From Acidimicrobiia bacterium (GTDB lineage Bacteria; Actinomycetota; Acidimicrobiia; IMCC26256; PALSA-610), in assembly GCA_017882905.1 (NCBI GenBank), contig JADGOO010000099.1, positions 1 through 34,607 of the forward strand: a stretch of 34,607 bases of DNA. Reading direction: 5' to 3'. A program made the translations under genes and the position numbers. Positions 20,695-21,269 of this stretch are shown here, piece by piece (position 1 is the first letter of the stretch; every line of letters begins with the position of its first letter). The notes below the pieces were generated by a model. The model worked only from the letters and a program-made list of their open reading frames with translations. It was not told the DNA's origin and did no database searches.

Positions 20695-21042
20695 CTAGGC
20701 GGTGCGGCGACCGTCGCGCGGGGCGACGGGTTCGCCGTTGCCGCGCGGGTAGCGCGCGACGCGACCGACGGGCATGTCGACCCGGTAGCCGGCGGCGGCG
20801 CGCTCTTCTTCGGACTCGCCGCCCCAGAAGCCGTACTCGCGGTTCTCGCGCGCCCAGTCGCGGCACTCGATGAGGGCCGGGCAGGCGCGACACACGGTGC
20901 GGGCCTGCGACTCGCGCACGGCGCGTGCCTCGGGCCGCTCGCCCGGAGGTGCGAAGAACAACGTTGTCTGCCCGGAGCAGGCCGCGTCTGCGGTCCACTC
21001 GAGCACACCCGTGAAGAACAGCGTCGCGGTGTCGACGGCCAT
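20695..21042 (-). CDS. WhiB-family iron-sulfur transcription regulator
   Basis: A 115-residue WhiB-like protein, a family restricted to actinobacteria and their phages. The four cluster-binding cysteines are Cys22 (DAACSGQ), Cys51, Cys54 and Cys60 (VCRACPALIEC), followed by the glycine-rich turn GFWGGES (71-77) that contacts the principal sigma factor, then a basic tail (RVARYPRGNG and RDGRR) that would bind DNA. It binds a 4Fe-4S cluster and works with sigma region 4 to sense redox state or nitric oxide. The start at 21042 follows CCGGAGGA by six bases. A divergent LysR gene lies on the other side of a 227-base gap that contains two palindromes. I cannot assign it to a specific whiB/wbl subclass. 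Confidence 0.93.
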   Translation of the reverse strand: MAVDTATLFFTGVLEWTADAACSGQTTLFFAPPGERPEARAVRESQARTVCRACPALIECRDWARENREYGFWGGESEEERAAAGYRVDMPVGRVARYPRGNGEPVAPRDGRRTA

Positions 21043-21133
21043 GGGGGGTCCTCCGGAGCTGGCCTGTGGCCGGGCGGGCGGCATCTCGCGGAGCCCGGCT
21101 CGTACTTCTTTCCCATTAGTGAAGCCGTTCACG

Positions 21134-21139
21134 ACACTA
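21134..21139 (-). promoter_or_regulatory. -10 candidate for whiB
   Basis: Minus-strand TAGTGT, immediately following ACAGA. It would place the whiB transcription start about 85 bases upstream of the start codon. It overlaps the left arm of the palindrome at 21137-21164. Confidence 0.35.
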
Positions 21140-21164
21140 TCTGTCCAACAGTTGAAACAGATAG
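21137..21164. promoter_or_regulatory. Palindrome in the whiB-lysR intergenic region
   Basis: CTATCTGT and ACAGATAG are perfect 8-bp inverted arms separated by 12 bases. The spacer contains a smaller palindrome (CAAC-A-GTTG). The region is AT-richer than its surroundings. Each arm carries the first bases of a -10-like box pointing outwards (TAGTGT to the left, TAGCAT to the right). It could be an operator, two back-to-back promoters, or both. Confidence 0.55.
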
Positions 21165-21167
21165 CAT
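21162..21167 (+). promoter_or_regulatory. -10 candidate for the lysR-type gene
   Basis: TAGCAT, preceded by the same ACAGA as the opposing box. It predicts a transcription start near 21174, just before the TTGACC palindrome, and a leader of about 96 bases. Confidence 0.35.
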
Positions 21168-21175
21168 CCATCACC

Positions 21176-21195
21176 TTGACCGATTGTGCGGTCAA
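21176..21195. promoter_or_regulatory. Candidate operator for the LysR-type regulator
   Basis: TTGACC and GGTCAA form a perfect 6-bp inverted repeat with an 8-base spacer, about 75-94 bases before the regulator's start codon. LysR-type proteins usually bind such interrupted dyads between themselves and a divergent target, so autoregulation and control of whiB are plausible. Confidence 0.45.
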
Positions 21196-21213
21196 ACGCC
21201 GCCAGATCGGCCC

Positions 21214-21237
21214 CCAGCCTGGTTCCCAGCCTGGTTC
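21214..21237 (+). repeat. Two tandem 12-bp copies in the lysR leader
   Basis: CCAGCCTGGTTC occurs twice in immediate succession. Each copy also contains a small self-complementary core (CCAGCCTGG), so the transcript could form alternative small hairpins. Its function is unknown. Confidence 0.7.
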
Positions 21238-21269
21238 ACGAGGCCGGCCCGATGCCCATGGAGGCTCGC

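Follow-up and report, generated by a model that had tools for sequence, protein, structure and literature searches.

The closest described systems are the divergent operators of the LysR-type regulators (LTTRs) BenM, CbnR, OxyR, and CutR. These combine a divergent lysR gene and a T-N11-A recognition site near -65 with an activation site over the -35 of overlapping promoters. A sliding-dimer scheme has been published for LTTRs (PMC12609908, PMC8407307). We describe a similar layout in the gap between a whiB and a lysR gene of an Acidimicrobiia bacterium. The window, meaning the whole stretch of DNA that was analyzed, is 34,607 nucleotides long (contig JADGOO010000099.1). The position of its recognition site, the T-N11-A form, and the predicted divergent, autoregulated layout are in line with published descriptions of LTTRs, and two possible dimer registers, the distal one over the -35, fit the sliding scheme (PMC12609908, PMC8407307). 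The window's switch differs from the BenM, CbnR, OxyR, and CutR operators in its neighbor, which is neither a catabolic nor a stress gene but whiB or, in other parts of the class, a C-loop RNA, and in being a single site per genome. A literature search found no published account of a lysR-whiB gap.

The lysR-whiB locus

The gap is 227 bases long (21043-21269), with the whiB start at 21042. The most likely lysR start is 21270, and in-frame ATGs are found further upstream at 21252 and 21258. Both LysR domains exceed their Pfam cut-offs: the N-terminal HTH_1 domain scored 67.7 bits (cut-off 26.6) and the C-terminal LysR_substrate domain 117.3 bits (cut-off 28). NCBIfam holds no equivalog for this protein; its best match, CynR, scored 126.5 bits against a cut-off of 277. 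The WhiB protein is above the PF02467 cut-off of 23.6 bits and has the four cysteines of a Wbl protein (C...CX2CX5C, residues 22, 51, 54, and 60). The nearest solved structures are WhiB3 and WhiB1. Among 60 related genomes searched, nearly all of the same order have a whiB ortholog, and lysR orthologs are present in 57 of 58 order genomes. LysR orthologs in the other orders of the class are 35-39% identical to the window's LysR. The genomes compared were mostly metagenome bins. Features of the locus are listed in Table 1.

Table 1. Positions of genes, operator elements, promoter elements, and palindromes in the window
Feature	Positions	Strand	Basis
whiB, WhiB-family protein, 115 aa	20695-21042	-	Pfam PF02467, 52.4 bits
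Predicted whiB 5' leader; C-loop hairpin not recognizable	21043-21110	-	Leaders of relatives, many with a hairpin here
Likely whiB -10, TTCACT, spacer 18; hexamer uncertain	21118-21123	-	Best order spacing 17-18
whiB-side -35, TGGACA	21142-21147	-	Conserved hexamer, fixed 17-base spacing to -10 in 22/23 class sequences
Composite LysR-type operator, ATC-N9-GAT-N7-ATC-N11-TTGGACAGAT	21139-21184	-	Exact in 43/58 order genomes
Activation-site region, ATC (21160-21162) and GACAGAT (21139-21145); two possible dimer registers 9 bp apart	21139-21162	-	Half-site model, column counts
Recognition site, ATCGGTCAAGGTGAT = ATC-N9-GAT, a T-N11-A box; center about -67 of whiB	21170-21184	-	28/28 at fixed distance; conserved through the class
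lysR -10 candidates, TAGCAT (21162-21167) or CATCAC (21169-21174)	21162-21174	+	Sequence; class operator comparison
Dyad 1, CTATCTGT-N12-ACAGATAG	21137-21164		Exact in window; perfect in 2/54 order sequences
Dyad 2, TTGACC-N8-GGTCAA	21176-21195		Exact in window; not conserved as a dyad
lysR, LysR-type regulator, about 300 aa	21270-22172	+	Pfam HTH_1 and LysR_substrate

A probable composite operator that stays with lysR

The most conserved part of the gap is the ATC-N9-GAT recognition site, which the initial annotation overlooked. It is one element of a composite operator. In whole-genome scans the exact composite occurred in 43 of 58 order genomes, once in each, and the reversed control gave 0 matches. 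An unbiased check used 48 loci with an upstream region, chosen by the LysR protein alone. Upstream of lysR, ATC-N9-GAT-N7-ATC-N11-TTNGACAGAT was perfect in 37 of these and had at most 2 mismatches over 18 positions in 45. The other three loci come from a single genus with tandem whiB, which retains lysR and whiB without the operator. Anchoring on GTTGGACAGAT or a near match to it gave 28 upstream regions, in which the conservation of that string is partly by construction; ATC-N9-GAT stood at one fixed distance in every region and a further ATC at a second fixed distance. In many genomes of the class the right half is looser, and the recognition site and the next ATC alone are recognizable. None of 269 genomes of the phylum outside the class contained the composite.

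The window's genome has one convincing site, and on this basis we rejected a broad regulon. Second one-mismatch matches were seen in three other genomes (G232:C28:51488-51533, G255:C57:45236-45281, and G394:C166:15281-15326). These may be further LysR targets, and their number is close to the roughly two chance matches that we estimate over 395 genomes. Separately, three metagenome contigs titled Bifidobacterium breve (CAMDCC010000075.1, CAMDSG010000163.1, and CAMBEL010000021.1; loci L056, L070, and L072) have this locus. Their titles look wrong, since the lysR-whiB locus they bear is that of Acidimicrobiia.

In other orders of the class, the operator adjoins the lysR ortholog with no whiB there, and in most its edge overlaps the lysR start codon. 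One locus, L129, has a whiB homolog away from lysR and without the operator. Outside the window's order, the operator (at most one mismatch) was found in 17 of 90 genomes with a LysR ortholog versus 0 of about 148 without one, as counted by a hand comparison of the ortholog list and the operator scan. Because the operator remains with lysR where whiB is not adjacent, it most likely belongs to LysR and is tied to lysR, not whiB. The LysR protein thus probably controls its own gene and, through the gap, the divergent neighbor, here a WhiB-family gene. That the main user of the region is another regulator, either WhiB itself or a Crp/GlxR-like protein, seems very unlikely to us. A Crp-like GTGA-N6-TCAC dyad does lie over the -10 in the window's family, and 6C RNA has been reported within the GlxR network of C. 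glutamicum (PMC4046766), but this dyad is restricted to some lineages, and the composite persists without an adjacent whiB and was not found in genomes lacking a LysR ortholog.

Alternatively, the conserved block might be no more than a strong sigma-70 promoter that serves whiB or the C-loop RNA, in which case lysR would be adjacent through synteny and its protein would not bind. The right element does make a good -35, separated by 17 bases from a -10, and the left ATC overlaps lysR promoter sequence. However, the ATC-N9-GAT site and the ATC after it are located upstream of the promoter core, hardly vary, keep a rigid spacing, and accompany lysR even when the downstream gene changes. We therefore regard a promoter without LysR as improbable.

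The initial annotation had proposed that two palindromes are the operators of the gap. Both strings exist and are exact in the window. Dyad 1 was found in 0 of 100 shuffles and is the sole copy in the 4.36-Mb genome, even when spacers of 10-14 are allowed. Dyad 2 is weak taken alone, as 48 of 100 shuffles contain a site of its type at up to two mismatches. Its left arm is missing in the relatives inspected, and we rejected it as the operator. For dyad 1, we compared 54 distinct order sequences chosen at no more than two mismatches to the composite. The ATC and GAT trinucleotides are retained in essentially all of them. The next three inner pairs are retained in 5, 10, and 31 sequences, the two outermost pairs in 20 and 11, and all eight pairs in only 2, the window's own included. 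Selection thus maintains two elements and not the palindrome, which is perfect in the window because both elements happen to read ATCTGT/ACAGAT there. What survives of the proposal is the pair of conserved LysR-type half-site elements within dyad 1, ATC at 21160-21162 and GACAGAT at 21139-21145 on the minus strand; as a conserved 8-bp operator dyad 1 was rejected, and neither palindrome is the conserved feature of the gap. The half-site of dyad 1 also forms a perfect recognition site in another locus (L064, ATCTGTCAGACAGAT), suggesting that its arms are good LysR half-sites. The palindromes therefore appear to be mostly by-products of a LysR-type switch.

Overlapping promoters and a proposed LysR switch

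In the initial annotation, a TAGNNT -10 box at each end of dyad 1, the two facing opposite ways, placed the -35 of each promoter on the -10 of the other. Both boxes are present, TAGTGT at 21134-21139 on the minus strand and TAGCAT at 21162-21167 on the plus strand. TAGTGT is not conserved as the whiB -10; the needed A occurs in 10 of the 54 order sequences, and the conserved -35/-10 pair is found elsewhere. In promoters of the class, the right element of the operator is the -35 (TGGACA or TTGACA), and CAnAnT comes exactly 17 bases after it, with A2 and T6 each present in 22 of 23 sequences. In the window's order, the best -35/-10 spacing is 17-18 bases. The conserved hexamer is thus the whiB-side -35, with its -10 17-18 bases downstream, and the -35 of one promoter does not fall on the -10 of the other. 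Instead, the two -35 regions overlap each other. TAGCAT is a possible lysR -10, and the second candidate, CATCAC, overlaps the recognition site. The -35 regions overlap with either candidate, which makes mutually exclusive lysR and whiB promoters plausible.

Taken as a whole, the model of palindromic operators between TAGNNT boxes has very little probability left. Its strings are real, dyad 1 is unique in the genome, and near-perfect copies of dyad 1 exist in a few relatives and in L150, but they are set against the rarity of the perfect dyad, the lack of conservation of dyad 2 and TAGTGT, and the location of the conserved promoter pair. The broader idea of a compact divergent regulatory region held up: the lysR and whiB promoters overlap, and the region is most likely used by the LysR protein.

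We predict that whiB transcription starts near 21110. Relative to this predicted start point, the site has the geometry of an LTTR operator, with the center of ATC-N9-GAT about 32 bp upstream of the -35 and conserved with lysR. A Crp-like dyad, GTGA-N6-TCAC, overlaps the likely whiB -10 (21118-21133, minus strand) and is at the same place in ten relatives. It was found in 11 order sequences, all from the window's family, with 0.26 expected by shuffling.

We think it very probable that the gap is a LysR-type divergent operator-promoter that switches whiB and lysR through a recognition site and an activation site. Comparison gives us the elements, how rigidly they are spaced, that they occur as a single copy, and that they go with lysR and not with whiB; LysR binding, autorepression, a 9-bp shift, and activation are what we infer. 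The neighboring LysR protein would anchor at ATC-N9-GAT. There it would cover a candidate lysR -10 and so probably repress lysR. A second LysR dimer would occupy the adjoining activation site, where its two possible registers differ by 9 bp. In the one more remote from the recognition site, the dimer would cover the whiB -35 and hold whiB down. Upon effector binding, it would move 9 bp toward the recognition site, free the -35, and aid RNA polymerase in starting whiB. Other orders of the class have this switch ahead of a C-loop RNA; in the window's order, whiB is the downstream gene. Trained on the recognition site, a half-site model found two more strong half-sites, at offsets 22 and 39-45. 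For the second dimer, it gave a best register starting at 31 and a weaker one at 22, nine bases apart, with bases shared in part with the defining pattern.

C-loop RNAs and comparison with known systems

Downstream of the operator promoter, relatives have hairpins closed on a C run. When the best hairpin of each sequence was counted, stems of at least 9 pairs were present in 23 of the 40 sequences from the order that have a C run and in 19 of the 23 from the class, versus about 1% after shuffling. Paired positions change together. When nine class sequences were aligned, the fold was two hairpins in which 12 of 16 pairs had changed on both sides. An RNA model built from this alignment, with no operator in it, gave 16 matches on 119 class genomes. 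Nine were re-read (G073, G094, G106, G109, G118, G133, G135, G138, and G147); these are 67-112 bases from a divergent lysR ortholog, and eight have ATC-N9-GAT upstream of the RNA. One more match (G069) adjoins lysR by coordinates, another (G103) seems to be the same RNA with no recognized lysR, and the remaining five look like ordinary GC-rich hairpins. In loci L131, L133-L152, and L155-L164, an RNA with two or three C-run-loop hairpins is transcribed away from lysR, between lysR and the next gene.

Two C-run-loop hairpins are found in other orders of the class, usually one in the window's order, and none recognizable in the window. About half of the order's whiB leaders retain one such hairpin, and those of several relatives match the terminal hairpin of the RNA model only. 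The window's leader had no match to the model and folded no better than its own shuffles. The genus with two tandem whiB genes (L113, L114, and L115; G027, G037, and G042) has lost the operator and kept the leader hairpin. We give roughly even chances to the following account: Acidimicrobiia have an uncatalogued 6C/B11-like C-loop RNA under a dedicated divergent LysR and a nod-box-spaced operator; in one order this promoter precedes whiB and the RNA became the whiB leader, and some genera, that of the window among them, then lost the hairpin.

The RNA driven by the operator in the wider class resembles the 6C/B11 RNA of Actinomycetales (RF01066) in its two or three C-run-loop hairpins. Many class genomes also have a HAD-IB gene nearby, and a HAD-IB-like gene lies beside 6C in the two genomes inspected (L153 and L154). 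It differs from 6C in the divergent lysR beside it, and its model (R1) gave no match to true 6C. No Rfam family covers the C-loop RNA, and no 6C match was found at E values up to 5 in the loci searched; assignment of the leader hairpin to Rfam 6C or another family was rejected for lack of a match. No class genome scored above the Rfam gathering threshold for RF01066, and weak matches across the class sit elsewhere. In other orders of the class, what lies past the lysR promoter is often a HAD-IB/acyltransferase-like gene, as named from sequence (L125-L128, L132, L136, L137, L140, L142, L147, and L152). Since the HAD-IB arrangement differs, the gene neighborhood makes kinship with 6C a lead and not a result.

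What looks new is the lysR/C-loop-RNA module, together with its coupling to whiB. In a large class of mostly uncultivated actinobacteria, the locus provides a WhiB-family gene with a local controller that can be put to the test. It is also a clear example of an operator staying with its regulator while its downstream partner changes from lineage to lineage. Should the C-loop RNA prove real, it would also provide a handle on the control of 6C-type RNAs.

The operator shares the ATC-N9-GAT-N7-ATC spacing, a conserved AT at the same distal offset, and a divergent regulator gene with the rhizobial nod box of NodD (pattern in PMC4782375). It differs in phylum and targets, and the window lacks the nod core caaacaatc[ga]atttt, having TGTTTCAACTGTTGG at that place. 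The likeness in spacing implies no NodD identity for LysR. Since the spacing is shared and the core is absent, the operator would work like a nod box without being one. It appears ordinary in kind, an LTTR-type operator of a conserved lysR that here serves whiB.
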